A DNA stretch of 34,366 nucleotides, taken from NCBI GenBank assembly GCA_021812985.1, contig JAKAMG010000032.1, forward strand, positions 1 to 34,366, given 5' to 3'. The notes under the pieces were generated by a model that was given only the letters and a program-made list of their open reading frames with translations, did no database searches and was not told where the DNA came from. The DNA comes from Bacteroidota bacterium (GTDB lineage: Bacteria; Bacteroidota; Ignavibacteria; Kryptoniales; JAKASW01). Below, piece by piece: positions 713 through 20,609 of the stretch (its first letter is position 1; each line of letters starts with the position of its first letter). A program made the translations under genes and the position numbers.

Positions 713-761
713 AAAAAAAAAGTATTGCTGCCACGAATAGTGTGGGCGGGCGGTAGCAGCA
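713..761 (-). terminator. Probable rho-independent terminator of mscL
   Basis: On the minus strand, 54 bases past the mscL stop, TGCTGC (761-756) can pair with GCAGCA (731-726), extended by two further pairs after one mismatch, around an 18-base loop. Four to five bases later comes a run of nine T (721-713 read on the minus strand). The long loop makes the stem modest, but the T-run is canonical. Confidence 0.55.
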
Positions 762-814
762 CTCCCCCCTCCACACCTAACAGTGCGGACCTGCAATCGT
801 CCGGGAAGGAAGCG

Positions 815-1249
815 TCATATCTGCGAAGTACAGTAGGGGCATCTGACCGCCTTCAGATTGACCGAGGACTGGCACTGGGGACAAGTCTTGGTGTTCGGCG
901 CAACGGCTGGCTTCTGACGCTTCAGCCTGTTCATGAGCTTCACGATCATAAACAATGCCCAGGCAACAATCAGGAAGGATACGATGCTGTTGAGAAAGAG
1001 TCCGTAGTTGATCGTCGCCGCGCCCGCGGCTTTCGCGGCCGCTAGAGATGGATACGAACCGCTGGACATGTTGATGAAGAGATTACTGAAATCCACGCCG
1101 CCGAGGAGACGTCCGAATGGAGGCATGATTACATCTGCCACAAGCGATTTGACCACCGTGCCGAATGATGCACCGATGACGATGCCTATCGCCATGTCCA
1201 CAACGTTTCCCTGAACGGCAAATTCTTTGAATTCATCGAGAATCTTCAT
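815..1249 (-). CDS. mscL: Large-conductance mechanosensitive channel MscL with C-terminal zinc ribbon
   Basis: The 144-residue protein carries the MscL core: an amphipathic N-terminal helix (MKILDEFKEFAVQGN), TM1 about residues 15-45 with the pore-lining GNVVDMAIGIVIGASFG segment, a periplasmic loop about 50-80, and TM2 about 82-105. It is the homopentameric inner-membrane valve that opens on membrane tension during hypo-osmotic shock. The usual C-terminal helical bundle (LLxEIRDLL-like) is absent; instead residues 123-140 read CPQC(10)CPYC, a four-Cys zinc-ribbon pattern. Start choice is firm: AGGAGG lies 6 bases before the ATG. The DUF3078 gene ends 63 bases upstream on the same strand and may share its transcript. 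The channel assignment is near certain; metal binding by the tail is inferred from the Cys spacing. Confidence 0.95.
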   Translation of the reverse strand: MKILDEFKEFAVQGNVVDMAIGIVIGASFGTVVKSLVADVIMPPFGRLLGGVDFSNLFINMSSGSYPSLAAAKAAGAATINYGLFLNSIVSFLIVAWALFMIVKLMNRLKRQKPAVAPNTKTCPQCQSSVNLKAVRCPYCTSQI

Positions 1250-1312
1250 GCTTTCCTCCTGTTATGTGCTTTTAGAATCTAGACTACTTTAGAGTCCCTG
1301 AACTCATCAGGT

Positions 1313-2191
1313 CTAAAACACCGTGTAAGTTAACCCCATCTGAAGGCCTTCCTTCATCTGTGTCCTCAGCGACTGGTCCTTCTGGTAAACCAGCTGATAG
1401 GTGAAGTTTACGTTTATAAATGAGTTGACCTTGGCGGCGATCAGGTTATCCCACCTTACATCCCACACTTTCAAATCGTTGAACCTAGTAAAAAGACGCA
1501 GGCCCGTTGTGAGAAGCATGTTGTCTGCCACCTGAAGTTTGGCCTGTGTCACCGATTCAAGACCTGTCTCTAACTTGAACGCCTCGACTTTGTCGGTTGT
1601 TGACGGGTTGTCAGTGTACTGACGATACCTGTTTGTAAATACTTCCTGTGCCGCAAGTCCAAGCCTCGTGGTAAGATTAGACAACTTGTCGTAATTGAAC
1701 CCCAGGCTCTGCGTCACGTAGCCAGGATCGAAAAAGTTCGCGATCGGCACGGGGACAGTGGAAGCGTAAGAGTAACCTTCCGCTATCGTCGTAATCACGG
1801 TATTGCTGAAGAATGGATTTGTGGCCCAGCCAACGTTGTATGTCAAAACGTCCTCGAGAAGGAGGTCGTTGTCCGTAGTGATCGCCCCCTGACTCCCGAG
1901 TTTGCTTCTCCCGTATGAGGCGCGAAGGTGATTGACCAGCCCCCACGTCTTGCCCTTATAGTTGTAGCCGACATTTGCGGTCACCGTCCACGCGAGCGCG
2001 TTAGATCCCCCCTGAGTCCAGTTGCTGAATGCTATCTGGCTAAGGTTGAGCGCAGTCACCATGGTTGGGATCCAGACACCGACCGTATCCGCATGCGCTG
2101 AATCTGGTTTTGCGGCCTGAGGACCCGGATATGCACAGGCCGTAAGCGCGGCAAAAAGAATTAAAAGTACGACGGTAGAAAGTTTGTACAT
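1313..2191 (-). CDS. DUF3078-type outer-membrane beta-barrel protein
   Basis: This 292-residue secreted protein has a signal peptide (residues 1-20). After it comes the pattern typical of DUF3078 proteins of Bacteroidota: a W58-containing NWTQGGSNALAW box followed by repeated amphipathic beta strands rich in aromatic residues and ending in the barrel-like C-terminus GLTYTVF. The family is thought to form outer-membrane barrels of unknown function. The segment LTAC at 16-19 fits a lipobox, so a lipidated N-terminus at C19 is possible, although barrel proteins are normally cut by signal peptidase I. A ribosome site AGGAGAGG precedes the ATG by about 5 bases. mscL follows 63 bases downstream. 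The family assignment rests on pattern recognition and is likely rather than certain. Confidence 0.72.
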   Translation of the reverse strand: MYKLSTVVLLILFAALTACAYPGPQAAKPDSAHADTVGVWIPTMVTALNLSQIAFSNWTQGGSNALAWTVTANVGYNYKGKTWGLVNHLRASYGRSKLGSQGAITTDNDLLLEDVLTYNVGWATNPFFSNTVITTIAEGYSYASTVPVPIANFFDPGYVTQSLGFNYDKLSNLTTRLGLAAQEVFTNRYRQYTDNPSTTDKVEAFKLETGLESVTQAKLQVADNMLLTTGLRLFTRFNDLKVWDVRWDNLIAAKVNSFINVNFTYQLVYQKDQSLRTQMKEGLQMGLTYTVF

Positions 2192-2531
2192 ATTCCCTCT
2201 CCTATCTTATCGGATGAACATCGAACCCTGTTGCCGTCGGAAAGCCTCTGACGCCGTATGTGACGGTTTGGCTCAAAGTTACTGAAGATTTGTCTAAGAA
2301 TCTGGAAGGTTTAAGAGAATCCACCTGTATCATGAGATAAGGTAACCAATCCCATAGGATTGTTCTCATCACGGAATGATAAAGAATCCGCGATGCTGCC
2401 TCTCAAGAATAGTTCCATCATCATGAATGTACTTCAGCCGAAGTCTTCGTAACTTATCGCTTAGACCCGGTTGTAGTTGCGCGCCGGGATGAAATCCGTT
2501 CTAACCCGACTGAAAAGGATTGATATCGCAG
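2192..2531. other. Divergent intergenic region between DUF3078 gene and GH76 gene
   Basis: About 340 bases separate two divergent genes, so promoters for both should lie here. I see no ORF, no strong hairpin and no clear minus 10/minus 35 pair. The last 17 bases hold AAGGA (2515-2519), the ribosome site used for the plus-strand gene. Confidence 0.4.
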
Positions 2532-3677
2532 ATGAGGGGGAGTATCAATAGCGTGAGTTTCCCAATACGTCCTGGTAGAGTTGTACTCGCAATTCTTTTG
2601 CTTTGTTCAGCCGCAGCCTATGGGCATGACGGCTTGGCCCACACGAAGAGTCCTTCGAAATCAATCTGGTTCTTCCGCGCCGACTCCGCCCAAGCCACGC
2701 TTCAGCGGGATTTCTGGAATCCGCAGGCGAAGATTTTTTACTCCAGCTCTTCCAGGTCTGGTGATCTCAATTACTGGTGGCAGGCGCACGCATTGGATGT
2801 ATTGGTCGACGGTTTCGACCGGACCGATAACCCAGATTACGTCGCGAGGATATCTTCCCTTTTCCAGGGTGTCTCAACGCAAAATGACGGGTTCACCAAC
2901 AACTACGACGACGACATGGCCTGGATGGCGCTTGCCCTTCTGAGGGCGTACCGCTGCACGGGTGATAAAAGATACAAGACTGTTGCGGAGAGCCTCTGGG
3001 ACACGATAAAAGAAGGATGGGACGCAAACCTGGGGGGCGGAGTATACTGGCAGAGAAATCCACACACATACAAAAACACACCTGCGAACGCGCCTGCATG
3101 CATTCTCGCGTGCCGCCTCTACGATGAGACTGGCGACAGCACCGACCTCGAGTGGGCGGAGAAGATGCACTTCTGGCTGAAGTCTACACTCGTCGACACC
3201 GCGACCGGCGTCGTGTGGGACGGAATCGACACAAAGGGGAGAGTTAGCAGAGCGCAATACTCGTACAACTATGGAACATACCTCGATGCATGCCTCGAAC
3301 TTTACAGGATCACCAGAAATCCTTCGAACCTGAACGAAGCCGTGACGACTGCAAAGGCGGCTGACAGCGTCTTCGCCTCCGGCGGAGTTCTCCGAAGCGA
3401 GGGAACGGGCGACGGAGGATTGTTCAACGGGATATACGTTCAGTACCTCGTGGAGCTCACAATCGAGCCTGACCTGGACGACTCCTTGCGAATCAAATTC
3501 GAGAGCTTTCTCTACGACAACGCAGTAACCTTATGGGAGAGGGGACAGATTCAGGGCATGGGCTTGTTCAACGACAACTGGAATTCACCGCCTTCCGGGA
3601 GCGTGAACCTGTCGGTCGAGCTGAGCGGGCTGCTTTTACTCGAAGCAGAGGCAAAGCTAAGCACGCACGTGAAATAG
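2532..3677 (+). CDS. Secreted glycoside hydrolase family 76 (alpha-1,6-mannanase type)
   Basis: The 381-residue protein begins with a long N-region and a hydrophobic signal core (VVLAILLLCSAAAYG). It then carries an alpha/alpha-barrel sequence with the GH76 hallmark NNYDDDMAWMALALLRAY; D127-D128, followed two residues later by Trp, match the paired catalytic aspartates of this family. Other family-like pieces are WWQAHALDVL near the start and the GGVYWQRN and SYNYGTYLDACLELY segments. GH76 enzymes hydrolyse alpha-1,6-mannosidic links, typically in fungal mannan or bacterial glycolipid/polysaccharide backbones, in the periplasm or outside the cell. An in-frame TTG at 2520 is possible, but AAGGA at 2515-2519 sits 12 bases before the ATG at 2532 and only touches the TTG, so the ATG is preferred. 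There is no carbohydrate-binding or sorting domain, and no sus-type partner genes are adjacent. The exact substrate is inferred from the family. Confidence 0.85.
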   Translation: MRGSINSVSFPIRPGRVVLAILLLCSAAAYGHDGLAHTKSPSKSIWFFRADSAQATLQRDFWNPQAKIFYSSSSRSGDLNYWWQAHALDVLVDGFDRTDNPDYVARISSLFQGVSTQNDGFTNNYDDDMAWMALALLRAYRCTGDKRYKTVAESLWDTIKEGWDANLGGGVYWQRNPHTYKNTPANAPACILACRLYDETGDSTDLEWAEKMHFWLKSTLVDTATGVVWDGIDTKGRVSRAQYSYNYGTYLDACLELYRITRNPSNLNEAVTTAKAADSVFASGGVLRSEGTGDGGLFNGIYVQYLVELTIEPDLDDSLRIKFESFLYDNAVTLWERGQIQGMGLFNDNWNSPPSGSVNLSVELSGLLLLEAEAKLSTHVK

Positions 3678-10716: not shown

Positions 10717-12387
10717 TCAGTATTCCTTGAGAACTGCTCCGGTGTTCGCGCTCGTAACGTGCCTAGCATACCTCCCGAGATAGCCGTGATTGATGCGGGG
10801 TTGGAATGGAGGAAGAGATGCAAGTCTCTTTTCAATCTCACCAGCTTCCACAAGTAACTCGAGCTTTCCCGTCGGAATGTCGATCTGTATCCTATCTCCG
10901 TTCCGGATTGCCGCTATCGGCCCCTTGACGGCGGCTTCAGGCGACACGTGTCCGATGCACGCGCCGCGAGTTCCTCCCGAAAATCTCCCGTCGGTGATGA
11001 GTGCGACGCTGTCGCCAAGTCCCATCCCCATCAGGTAGGAGGTCGGAGCAAGCATCTCCTGCATCCCCGGGCCGCCCATGGGGCCTTCATACCGGATCAC
11101 GACTACATTCCCCCGCTCTACCTTTCCTGCCAGAATTCCCTGCACTGCATCTTCCTGTGACTCAAAGACCACAGCATCGCCTTCGAACACAAGCATTTCC
11201 TTCCTAACTCCTGCCGTCTTGACGATCGCCCCCTGCGGCGCAAGATTTCCGAATAGGACTGTAAGGCCTCCATCCTGCGAGTATGCGTTGCCGATTTCCC
11301 TGATGCACTCCTTGTCAGTAGTTTCGACCTTCGATATGTTCTCGCCCAGGCTCTTTCCTGTTACGGTCTTCGAGTCGAGAGAGAGTAGACCTGGAATATT
11401 CGAAATCTCCTTCAGAATTGCGCTGACCCCGCCGGCATGATCCACGTCTTCCACATGGTAGGACGAGGATGGGCTCACCTTGCAGATGTTCGGAGTTTTC
11501 CTGGAGAGACGGTTGATCTTCTCAAGATCATATTGAATTCCTGCTTCGTGGGCTATGGCCAAAGTGTGCAGGACGGTATTCGTGCTCCCTCCCATTGCCA
11601 TGTCGAGAACTAAGGCGTTCCCTATCGCCTCTTCGGTAACTATGTCCCGCGGTTTGAGGTCCATCTGTATAAGCTTCAATATCTGTCTAGCGGCGGCGCG
11701 GTAAAGCTCTTCGCGCCTCGTGTCAACCGCCAATACCGTTCCGTTGCCTGGAAGGCCCATGCCGAGCGCTTCCGTGAGACAGTTCATGGAGTTCGCCGTG
11801 AACATTCCGCTGCATGACCCGCATGTCGGACAGCCGTTCCTCTCCAGGTCGAGAAGCTGTTCGTCGTTTATGTTTCCGGATTTATACGATCCCACTCCTT
11901 CAAACACTGATATGAGGTCGACCGTACGCCCGTCCTTTGTGCGGCCGGCAGCCATCGGACCGCCACTCACGAAAATTGCAGGGATGTTTACTCTCATCGC
12001 AGCCATCAGCATGCCGGGGACTATCTTGTCGCAATTGGGAACGCATACCATCCCGTCGAACTGGTGCGCCCGTATCATGGTTTCGACCGAATCGGCAATC
12101 AATTCCCGGCTGGGTAGAGAATACTTCATGCCACTGTGCCCCATTGCAATGCCGTCGTCCACCCCGATGGTATTGAACTCAAACGGCACGCCCCCCGCCT
12201 TTCTTATTTCATCTTTAATGAGCGCGCCAACCTTATTCAGATGAACATGACCCGGTATTATCTCTACGAATGAATTTACTACGGCTATAAACGGTTTCCC
12301 GAAATCTTCTTCTTTCACGCCTGCCGCGCGCAGCAGACTCCTGTGCGGCGCGCGCTCAAAGCCTTTCTTAATGACATCGCTTCTCAT
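10717..12387 (-). CDS. ilvD: Dihydroxy-acid dehydratase IlvD
   Basis: The 556-residue protein is the usual length for IlvD (EC 4.2.1.9), which dehydrates 2,3-dihydroxy-3-methylbutanoate and its isoleucine analogue to the 2-keto acids in branched-chain amino acid synthesis. Recognisable blocks are [20 protein letters not shown] (71-90), [14 protein letters not shown] with C119, and [13 protein letters not shown] with C192, both iron-sulfur ligands, plus [11 protein letters not shown] near the C-terminus. The position that is Cys in the [2Fe-2S] subgroup reads PGHVHL here (45-50), as in the E. coli enzyme, so an oxygen-sensitive [4Fe-4S] cluster is predicted by analogy. GAGGA lies 5 bases before the ATG. 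No other ilv or leu genes are in the window. A stable hairpin sits 36 bases upstream of the start codon. Confidence 0.97.
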
Positions 12388-17177: not shown

Positions 17178-17804
17178 ATCGGTACTCCTTCTTGTTCAAT
17201 TAATTCGAAATTTGGTTGGACGGTGCCCGCCTGACGGTTGGTACAGCGTCTGTATATTTGTCATAATTATTATCGGCTCCTTTTAGATAAAACTTTACCC
17301 AAATCTTCGCATAAACTACCACACATTAGTTTGGCGGCCACCGGATGGGATGTGAAATAGTCCGGCAATTGGATGAATTCTACTATTGAAACTTATTTGC
17401 CAATTCAAAGTGACGGAATCGTGAGGGACGCCCTAGTCAATCGTCGTGTACTCTGAGCAACAGGGGGATAAAACGGTCGCGTCAATTCATCTGGAAGAGG
17501 GTTCGGCGATCCGCTCCTCAGGCCCGAGTCTTTGACGAGGATTTTAGGAGCGGTTGATCTGGAGCGGAGAGTCACTGAATGCTCCATCTAAAAATAAAAC
17601 CTCAAAACAACTGCAGTCTGATGGAATTATTCCGATACAGCGGTAGAGAAGAGGTCTAAGACATTGGCACTTCGTACTGCGCCCTCACACTACTGACGGC
17701 GGGGGCCTCCTTTGCCCAAACGGAGATTCCGCAGGAGAGGCGGAAATCCCAAATGGCGTCCGAATCAGGTGTGCGCCTAAACAGTGTAACTATTGGAAAA
17801 GTGT
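17178..17804. other. Divergent intergenic region with a signal-peptide-like open frame
   Basis: About 625 bases between the porin and the plus-strand PAS kinase. No full gene is supported. One plus-strand frame is open from 17660 to its stop at 17825-17827 and contains ALTLLTAGASFAQTEIP, which looks like the end of a signal peptide, but no start codon of any standard kind precedes it in frame. A TTG one frame away (17664) has GAAGAGG upstream. This may be a decayed secreted-protein gene or chance. Confidence 0.3.
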
Positions 17805-20609
17805 ATGGAAAGAACCAGGGATTCTGAAAAGCTCCTGTTGGCCGAGCTAACCAGGCTGAAAGAAGAAAATGAGAGTTTGAGACTCGCTTACCGGGCGGAC
17901 ATTGCCCGACGTGAAGCGGAAGAGGAAGTACTCCGGACGAGCGAAGCACGATACCGGCAGCTTGTTGAAACCGCAATTGAAGGAATTTTGTCGGTAGATA
18001 TCGAGAGGCGGCTGACCTTCGTGAACGAGCAAATGGCAAAGATGCTCGGTTACAGCGTACAGGAAATGCTGGGACGGAAGTACGATTCTTTCCTACCGGA
18101 GGACCAGCTCGTCGAAGACAGAGCGCAGGCAAAGATTCGGGCTCAGGGAAAAAATGCAGTCTATGAAAGGTGTTTCCTTAGAAAGGACGGCCAAAGACAC
18201 TGGCTCCTCGTTTCCGCAAAAGCTCTCACGGATGCCGATGGAAAGTTCGCCGGTTCATTCGGCATGTTCACCGACATCAACGACCGCAAGAAAATGGAAG
18301 CAGCCATACAGGAAAGCGAGGAGAAGTACCGGCGTATCGTTGAGACGGCGACTGAAGGAATACTCGCGGTGGACACCGAAAGGCGTCTTACTTTCGTAAA
18401 CCAGCAGATGGCGAAGATGCTCGGATACACAGTCGGAGAAATGCTTGGGAGAAAGTACGAGTCTTTTCTCCCGGAGGACCAGCTGATTGAAGACACGGCG
18501 CAAGCAAAGATCCGGGCTCAGGGTAAAAGCGCAGTCTATGAGAGATGCTTCCTGAGGAAGGACGGCCAACGACACTGGATACTCGTCTCGGCAAAGGCGA
18601 TAACCGATTCGGAGGGTAAGTTCGCGGGGTCGTTCGGTATGTTCACCGATATCAACGACCGAAAGAAGATGGAAGTGGCCTTGCAAGAAAGCGAGGAGAA
18701 GTACCGCCGTATCGTTGAGACGGCTACTGAGGGAATACTCGCTGTGGACACCGAGAGGAGGCTTACTTATGTAAACCAACAGCTGGCAAAGATGCTCGGC
18801 TACACAATCGAAGAAATGCTTGGGAGAAAGTACGAGTCTTTCCTCCCGGAGGACCAGCTGATTGAAGACACGGCGCAAGCGAAGATTCGCGCGCAGGGGA
18901 AGAGCGCAGTTTACGAGAGATGCTTCCTGAGGAAGGACGGCCAACGACACTGGATACTCGTCTCGGCAAAGGCGATAACCGATTCGGAGGGCAAGTTCGC
19001 GGGATCTTTCGGTATGTTCACGGACATCAACGAACGAAAACGGGCCGAGGCAGCTCTGCAGGAGAGCGAAGAACGCTACCGCAGGATCGTGGAAACTGCC
19101 AACGAGGGGGTTCTATCATTCGGTAGTGACACGAAGATAAACTTTGTGAACAGGCAGATGGCGGCAATGCTCGGATACACAATAGAAGAAATGATGGGAC
19201 GGGAATTCGAAACGTTCCTCGCCGAAGACCAGTTGAGCGAGCACCACGTGCAAATGAAGAACCGTGCCCAGGGAAAGGACGCCATATACGAGAGGTGCTT
19301 CAGGCGCAAAGACGGTCAGCGCTACTGGATGCTGGTCTCTGCCAAGGCATTAATGGATTCACAGGGGCATTACGCAGGATCGTTTGCGATGTTCACGGAT
19401 ATCAACGACCGCAAGCTGACCGAGGCGGCGCTCTATGAGAGCGAAAAACAATACAGGCTCCTTTTCGAGACTGCCAAGGAAGCGATAGTCGTGATACAAA
19501 AGAGCAGACTTAGTTATTTCAATCCGGTGATGTCCGAGCTCACCGGCTACAGTCACGAAGAGATCCTGGACATGAACTTCTTCGAGTTCGTTTACCAGGA
19601 GGACCGGGACCTCGCCATCGCCAATCACAACAAGACAATAATGGGAAACAGCTCCGAACAGCGCATCCAGTTCAGGATGGTCAGGAAGGACGCGTCGATC
19701 TGCTGGGTCGAGATGGGGAGCGTCAGGTTCACATGGAAGGGCGAGGCCGCGACGCTGAATTTCATCATCGACATCACAGAGCAGAAGAACGCGGAGATCG
19801 AGCTAATCAGGCTGAACGAAGAGCTGAAGACATCAAAAGACCTGATTGAAGAGAATCTTTTCCAGAACAATATGCTCCTTGAGAAACTGACCGACACAAA
19901 GGAAAAGCTCGAAAGGATGAACTCCGAGAAGGACAAGTTCTTCTCGATCATCGCACACGACCTGCGGAGCCCATTCCAGGGCTTCATCGGACTGACTCAA
20001 ATAATGGCCGAGCAGATAAATATACTGTCGAAATCAGACCTCTCCGAGATGAGCAGCGAGCTGCACAAGTCAGCGAACAGCCTCTACAAGCTCCTGCAAA
20101 ATCTTCTTGAATGGTCACAGGTGCAGAAGGGGACGATTCCCTTCGAACCGCACAGTCTCCCGCTGTCGGAGTTAGTCTCGCAGAGCCGCGAGAGCCTTGA
20201 ACAGCGCGCGGCCCAGAAAGGCATCACCATTGAAACCCGCATACCAGGCTCCGTCATGGTCTACGCGGATGAGAAGATGCTTAACACCGTGCTCCGAAAC
20301 CTCATGTCAAACGCGGTTAAATTCACAAAGAAGGATGGGAGAGTTGTGATCTCAGCTAAACCGATAGATGGCGGCATGATTGAGGTCTCAGTTACCGACA
20401 CCGGCATAGGTATGTCCGAAGCCAATGTCGCGAAACTGTTCAGGCTGGACCACAAGGTGGGTAGGGCCGGAACGGAAGGTGAGCCTAGCACCGGCCTGGG
20501 CCTCCTATTGTGCGGGGAATTCGTCGAAAAACATGGGGGAAGGATCTGGGTGGATAGCCGTGAGAATGTCGGGAGCACATTTCATTTCACAGTGAAGTCA
20601 ACCGACTGA
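17805..20609 (+). CDS. Soluble five-PAS sensor histidine kinase
   Basis: Numbered from ATG 17805 (934 residues; a TTG at 17793 would add four and has no ribosome site). An N-terminal coiled coil (1-45) leads into four consecutive 125-residue PAS/PAC units starting at S46, S171, S296 and S421, a divergent fifth PAS (about 546-665), a second coiled coil, a HisKA domain with FFSIIAHDLRSPFQGFIG (H718 phospho-acceptor) and a HATPase domain with N836 in the N box, DTGIGM and TGLGL glycine boxes. No transmembrane segment is visible, so it senses cytoplasmic signals or redox/haem ligands. No receiver domain or regulator gene is adjacent. Units 2 and 3 differ at about 8 of 125 residues. It is convergent with the next kinase gene. 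Confidence 0.94.
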   Translation: MERTRDSEKLLLAELTRLKEENESLRLAYRADIARREAEEEVLRTSEARYRQLVETAIEGILSVDIERRLTFVNEQMAKMLGYSVQEMLGRKYDSFLPEDQLVEDRAQAKIRAQGKNAVYERCFLRKDGQRHWLLVSAKALTDADGKFAGSFGMFTDINDRKKMEAAIQESEEKYRRIVETATEGILAVDTERRLTFVNQQMAKMLGYTVGEMLGRKYESFLPEDQLIEDTAQAKIRAQGKSAVYERCFLRKDGQRHWILVSAKAITDSEGKFAGSFGMFTDINDRKKMEVALQESEEKYRRIVETATEGILAVDTERRLTYVNQQLAKMLGYTIEEMLGRKYESFLPEDQLIEDTAQAKIRAQGKSAVYERCFLRKDGQRHWILVSAKAITDSEGKFAGSFGMFTDINERKRAEAALQESEERYRRIVETANEGVLSFGSDTKINFVNRQMAAMLGYTIEEMMGREFETFLAEDQLSEHHVQMKNRAQGKDAIYERCFRRKDGQRYWMLVSAKALMDSQGHYAGSFAMFTDINDRKLTEAALYESEKQYRLLFETAKEAIVVIQKSRLSYFNPVMSELTGYSHEEILDMNFFEFVYQEDRDLAIANHNKTIMGNSSEQRIQFRMVRKDASICWVEMGSVRFTWKGEAATLNFIIDITEQKNAEIELIRLNEELKTSKDLIEENLFQNNMLLEKLTDTKEKLERMNSEKDKFFSIIAHDLRSPFQGFIGLTQIMAEQINILSKSDLSEMSSELHKSANSLYKLLQNLLEWSQVQKGTIPFEPHSLPLSELVSQSRESLEQRAAQKGITIETRIPGSVMVYADEKMLNTVLRNLMSNAVKFTKKDGRVVISAKPIDGGMIEVSVTDTGIGMSEANVAKLFRLDHKVGRAGTEGEPSTGLGLLLCGEFVEKHGGRIWVDSRENVGSTFHFTVKSTD
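17940..19439 (+). repeat. Four 375-bp tandem repeats encoding PAS/PAC units
   Basis: The codon for the Ser that opens each unit (agcgaa) recurs at 17940, 18315, 18690, 19065 and 19440, always exactly 375 bases apart, so four units carry no insertion or deletion. Units 2 and 3 are the closest; they share a 77-base run without a mismatch (18540-18616 equals 18915-18991), including silent positions. Unit 1 is about 84 percent identical to unit 2 in protein by my count, and unit 4 is clearly more diverged. The fifth PAS copy no longer aligns in sequence. Confidence 0.92.

Follow-up and report, generated by a model that had tools for sequence, protein, structure and literature searches.

The stretch of DNA analysed here, referred to as the window, is 34,366 nt long and holds on its forward strand, at positions 17805-20609, a gene whose sequence indicates an orphan soluble sensor histidine kinase, probably cytoplasmic, with an array of PAS domains. 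Its reading frame is open from a TTG codon at 17793; the ATG at 17805, which agrees with the start of the orthologues, was taken as the start, giving a product of 934 residues. Pfam finds, in order, five PAS stretches, HisKA (713-779) and HATPase_c (826-936). The N-terminal region (17805-17939) looks coiled-coil-like, and neither a signal peptide nor a transmembrane segment was apparent there by inspection. HisKA spans 19929-20129, with the predicted phospho-acceptor His codon at 19956-19958 and an H-box that reads AHDLRSP, and the HATPase_c catalytic domain spans 20268-20600. No receiver domain was found in the protein by Pfam and no partner response regulator was identified; among the Pfam-tested neighbour genes, only hybrid kinases hold a receiver domain. 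The neighbours are a porin-like gene, an MCP, hybrid kinases and a cytochrome c protein. An antisense ORF (18255-18950) lying across the array region is regarded as a chance frame.

The array consists of four in-frame PAS units of 125 residues each, located at 17940-18314 (unit 1), 18315-18689 (unit 2), 18690-19064 (unit 3) and 19065-19439 (unit 4). The starts are spaced 375/375/375 nt without any indel, as the original prediction had it, and TRF recovers the same array with a period of 375. Units 2 and 3 had also been described as about 8 of 125 residues apart with a 77-base run in common. Indeed, they differ at 8/125 residues, at 43/375 bases (88.5% nucleotide identity) and at 32 third positions, and their longest identical run is 77 nt (unit offset 225-301; positions 18540-18616 in unit 2 and 18915-18991 in unit 3). 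The description of the units as near-identical tandem copies does not extend to units 1 and 4, which differ from the rest at 20-25 and 42-45 residues, respectively, their silent sites being at or near saturation. Unit 4 is followed, in near register, by a fifth, divergent PAS domain (about 19440-19802, from Pfam), 28% identical to unit 2 and conserved at the same place in the orthologues; this brings the PAS domains of the kinase to five. In the rest of the window's genome (a draft assembly of 64 contigs), the PAS unit has a single further close copy, in a hybrid kinase (L002 17-3190, minus strand; G000:C27) whose one unit of this PAS type shares 63% identity with unit 2.

Scanning the species genomes with a profile of the unit yielded two MAGs with 85-86% identical units (L034, or G061, and L033, or G062), together with the single-unit relatives L035 (70%) and L036 (59%). 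Two further arrays, G409 and G415, were added by a search of L034's family. This family is of the same class as the window genome and probably a different family, because the class search lists matches with identical contig coordinates under f22. The number of PAS units is 3 in G415, 4 in the window, 5 in G061, 5 in G409 and at least 4 in G062, so that copy number changes between species, each represented by one genome, where the original prediction had variation between strains; every complete unit across the five arrays is exactly 125 aa long. All five arrays come from draft assemblies, and contig ends truncate G062 and G415; in G062 only the first 30 residues of unit 4 are present (L033 6376-6467), which makes its count a lower bound. 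A contig end inside the array also suggests that assembly can break at arrays of this kind.

Over the part running from the fifth PAS domain through the kinase (PAS5-kinase), the window protein is 74% identical to G061 and 72% to G409, with 85% identity between the latter two. A search of the 12 other genomes in the window's genus yielded no orthologue of the kinase, and neither did plasmids, where the best match was under 60% identity. Elsewhere in the window, an IlvD/Edd-type dehydratase gene (10717-12387, minus strand) is 64-67% identical to the copies of G402 and G415, from another family, and only 41-42% identical to the copies found in two genomes of the same genus. Because it is closer to the other-family copies, the dehydratase, like the kinase, may be a transferred or differentially kept gene.

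In the DNA tree of the units, one clade (100/97; 94/89 with protein) unites the terminal units of the window, G061, G409 and G415, the four genomes where this unit was recovered: the array ends in an old orthologue of the other family's last unit. The best-supported pairs among the remaining units are found within genomes, namely units 2 and 3 of the window (100/99), units 2 and 3 of G062 (98/99), units 1 and 2 of G415 (100/100) and units 2 and 4 of G061 (93/94). AU tests reject the pairing of window units 2 and 3 with units 2 and 3 of G061, respectively, as well as wider positional sets of units 2 and of units 3/4 (p of 2e-4 and below for DNA, 1e-4 to 0.017 for protein). Forcing the four window units into one clade is rejected too (p 5e-5 for DNA, 2e-4 for protein). 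DNA weakly rejects orthology of the first units of the window, G061, G062 and G409 (p 0.027), protein does not (p 0.16), and unit 1 may therefore be partly position-orthologous; it joins window units 2 and 3 in the DNA tree (98/98), a grouping absent from the protein trees. The non-terminal units of G061 and of G409 are not clean within-genome clades, although DNA does not reject such a clade for either (p 0.14 for both), and a single clade of the four non-terminal G061 units is rejected by protein (p 0.03).

Overall, non-terminal units are more alike within a genome than to their positional counterparts in the window, G062 and G415, partially so in G061 and weakly in G409. These tree results indicate that at least two unit types predate the split of the families' genes, and that later events hit the non-terminal type in each lineage. 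Lineage-specific homogenisation and copy-number change of the inner units are thus well supported, and the array behaves as a slowly shuffled repeat, not as a set of old fixed domains. Four units all equally divergent and old, the contrary pattern named in the original prediction, are not what the orthologues display.

Silent sites were compared at codons for the same residue. Among non-terminal units, silent-codon identity is 0.64 within genomes versus 0.46 between genomes, and a null built from each genome's own codon usage (200 shuffles) gives 0.43 within genomes (maximum 0.45) and 0.39 between them. For the terminal unit of the window against its other units, identity (0.40) equals the null (0.41): this unit shows no homogenisation.

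The two kinds of unit also differ at column 60. His is found there in 4/4 terminal units (codon 19242-19244 in the window) and in three single-unit relatives, versus Asp in all non-terminal units of the five arrays. This split sorts the units of the array into two kinds and is evidence that the non-terminal type arose once. By sequence, the nearest solved structure of the unit is DosP, at ~20% identity; DosP, LOV-HK, FixL and MmoS are among the top fold matches, also ~20% identical, a set that includes heme and flavin PAS proteins. Column 60 aligns to residue 77, a His, of the 807-residue DosP chain (9bgv). Heme-binding PAS domains of the DosP/FixL type have an axial His on the F helix, and in E. 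coli DosP this His ligates the heme. As a candidate heme ligand, His60 of the terminal unit is a lead only, because His at this column also occurs widely: it is the commonest residue among 111 related units (47).

A second PAS array of the same genome served as a control. It lies in L196 (G000:C56:143000-146200; ORF 748-3054, minus strand), comprises four PAS domains with a mean period of 125 aa and precedes a phosphatase domain, of the SpoIIE/PP2C type by inspection. Four units were found in the window genome and in four others, and two units in the 551-aa frame of G001. The units are strictly position-orthologous across the genus (89/87, 98/99, 97/95 and 100/99 for positions p1 to p4), and the trees across the genus reveal no homogenisation in this four-PAS phosphatase array. 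A PAS array of such a period therefore does not homogenise by default, in a comparison where divergence is not matched, the control being sampled within the genus and the kinase array across families.

We explain the observed exact periods, copy numbers, tree pattern and silent-site excess by concerted evolution, a reading that we hold to be likely. The sensory region of the kinase would be a PAS array in which the inner units are duplicated, lost or overwritten in each genome and the terminal unit is left out. An older duplication, before the split from the gene lineage of the other family, would have produced the terminal unit and the non-terminal type, with a change of His60 to Asp; non-terminal units would then have repeatedly been copied, lost or replaced by one another within each genome. 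The route may be in-register recombination between the 375-nt repeats, and as a consequence unit number would step by exactly 125 residues (3, 4, 5) and inner copies would be alike. The terminal unit, adjoining the conserved PAS5-kinase output, would escape exchange. In the window, the last such event would have made units 2 and 3, with its junction where the helix between two PAS domains begins. A change by a whole unit would presumably be tolerated, the joining helix staying in frame and phase, and the kinase would still get its signal with one near-identical sensor module more or fewer.

The first alternative is a narrower history, consisting of serial tandem duplication through unequal crossing-over only, without later conversion, where the 77-nt patch reflects substitutions that happen to be unevenly spread. 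As this history falls within concerted evolution, our confidence in the two overlaps; taken by itself, it appears possible and somewhat less probable than not. A 77-nt run among 43 differences has a chance p of 0.0009 when the differences are shuffled at the nucleotide level, and of 0.008 when silent differences alone are shuffled. Allowing for all unit pairs of the window array brings this to a global p of 0.02-0.04, and p<0.05 is reached in 4/32 within-genome pairs, both of which suit duplication alone. Silent-only conversion tests in G061 and G409, at codons alike in all units, were not significant. Against duplication alone, three of the four significant pairs, from two genomes, have patches that fall in a common region of the unit (offsets 225-299 for window units 2 and 3, 252-314 and 228-272 in G409), and silent identity between window units 2 and 3 is 24/24 codons in the patch versus 0.674 outside it. 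A conversion patch as such has nominal support only (p 0.008-0.04).

The junction leaves both histories standing. Units 2 and 3 share 91% identity over their bodies (offset 0-338) and 61% over their linkers; the linker of unit 2 (18654-18689) is 81% identical to that of unit 1 (18279-18314) versus 61% to that of unit 3 (19029-19064). The break between body and linker, the likely exchange junction, coincides with the beginning of the predicted inter-PAS helix (114-136). Given that the predicted model has a mean pLDDT of 76 and a pTM of 0.47, only its local fold was used. Under duplication alone, a single whole-unit event whose junction falls in the linker accounts for the contrast, and the contrast fits a whole-unit duplication and a conversion tract ending in the linker equally. 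Of the recent duplication followed by gene conversion that had been proposed, the duplication and homogenisation of inner units stand, the conversion patch is nominal only, and the word recent has to be given up.

The latter point follows from dS, which is 0.46-0.55 between units 2 and 3 and about 2.9 between units 1 and 2, with all remaining window pairs saturated. The array is therefore not recent, no two of its units are near-identical over their whole length, and its last unit is an old orthologue. In the five arrays, homogenised within-genome pairs are ~84-94% identical and have dS values of 0.19-0.69 (NG86), lower than those between terminal orthologues, which run from about 1 to saturation. 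In favour of a recent duplication whose copy number still varies among present-day strains are the exact in-register repeats of 77, 38 and 30 nt that remain in the window array as recombination substrates, and the difference in copy number between species. However, with a dS of about 0.5 for units 2 and 3, other pairs at or near saturation and no near-identical full unit, we judge this reading rather improbable.

An old fixed array, alike only through purifying selection on the protein, is very improbable. The dN/dS of about 0.07 for units 2 and 3 and the high conservation of unit residues in all arrays would suit it; however, the within-genome similarity extends to silent sites, and the AU tests reject positional orthology. 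Purifying selection alone is thus contradicted for units 2 and 3 and could still hold for unit 4. We give equally little weight to an assembly artefact, be it false duplication or collapsed copies. The draft state of the assembly and the G062 contig that ends inside the array are what could be said for it, but the units differ at 43 or more sites, the longest exact repeat (77 nt) is shorter than usual short reads, and similar arrays occur in independent assemblies; a further identical copy might nevertheless have been lost in assembly. Finally, a constraint at the DNA or RNA level on the 77-nt patch, hinted at by several pairs whose longest identical run lies near offset 200-280, is rejected as the least credible of these readings, because silent identity between genomes is about the same inside and outside the patch (0.35 versus 0.37 for pairs of the window with another genome, 0.47 versus 0.45 overall).

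Concerted evolution could be extended to function, as an evolvable sensor ladder. The terminal unit would keep a His-ligated cofactor, perhaps heme, and set the signal, and the inner copies, interchangeable and carrying H60D, would be tuned in number by recombination, within populations too, altering the gain or threshold of the kinase. We offer this extension as a long shot.

Tandem PAS domains are usually divergent. In a survey of 663 ORFs from the loci analysed, a set biased towards PAS proteins, the kinase-array family alone exceeded 80% self-identity at a PAS-like lag, and the literature searched, most subscription journals being outside its scope, contained no report of PAS arrays under concerted evolution. 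Concerted evolution of tandem domains is a known process, met here in a bacterial sensor, and the pattern is moderately unusual. Within-gene concerted evolution is best known from animal repeat proteins, and the kinase provides an example in bacterial signalling. Multi-PAS kinases are common, and the reason for their many PAS domains and the route by which the number changes are unclear; one orthologous kinase with 3, 4 and 5 units of equal length offers natural variants for testing the effect of PAS copy number on signalling.

Compared with known systems, the kinase has the PAS-PAS-...-HisKA-HATPase design of multi-PAS histidine kinases (TIGR00229 sensory box proteins), of which one kinase may hold up to 19 PAS domains (PMC10468136). 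It differs from the usual ones in that the inner units are near-copies and their number shifts by whole units between orthologues. The tandem PAS sensors DosP, FixL and MmoS provide the best sequence match (DosP) and top fold matches at ~20% identity, the cofactor of the kinase units being putative. The PASx4-SpoIIE/PP2C phosphatase of the same genome shares the four PAS domains and the period of 125 aa, and differs in being position-orthologous and free of homogenisation. Poly-HAMP arrays such as that of Aer2 (PMC3570549) are likewise repeated, helix-joined signalling modules in a soluble receptor, and are an analogue only, as the modules of the kinase are PAS and not HAMP. We also noted near-identical 91-residue HAMP-like repeats, 86% over 100 residues, in an acidobacterial methyl-accepting protein (L043 1-1752), a candidate for another case of homogenised signalling modules. 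The abalone fertilisation protein VERL is an animal case of concerted evolution, with 22 repeats, among which repeats 3-22 reach at least 95% identity (PMC2704960). Like VERL, the kinase has tandem in-frame domains whose inner repeats are homogenised within species and an end that evolves separately; unlike VERL, it is bacterial, has 3-5 repeats with ~84-94% identity in homogenised pairs, and only its terminal end is clearly excluded from homogenisation.
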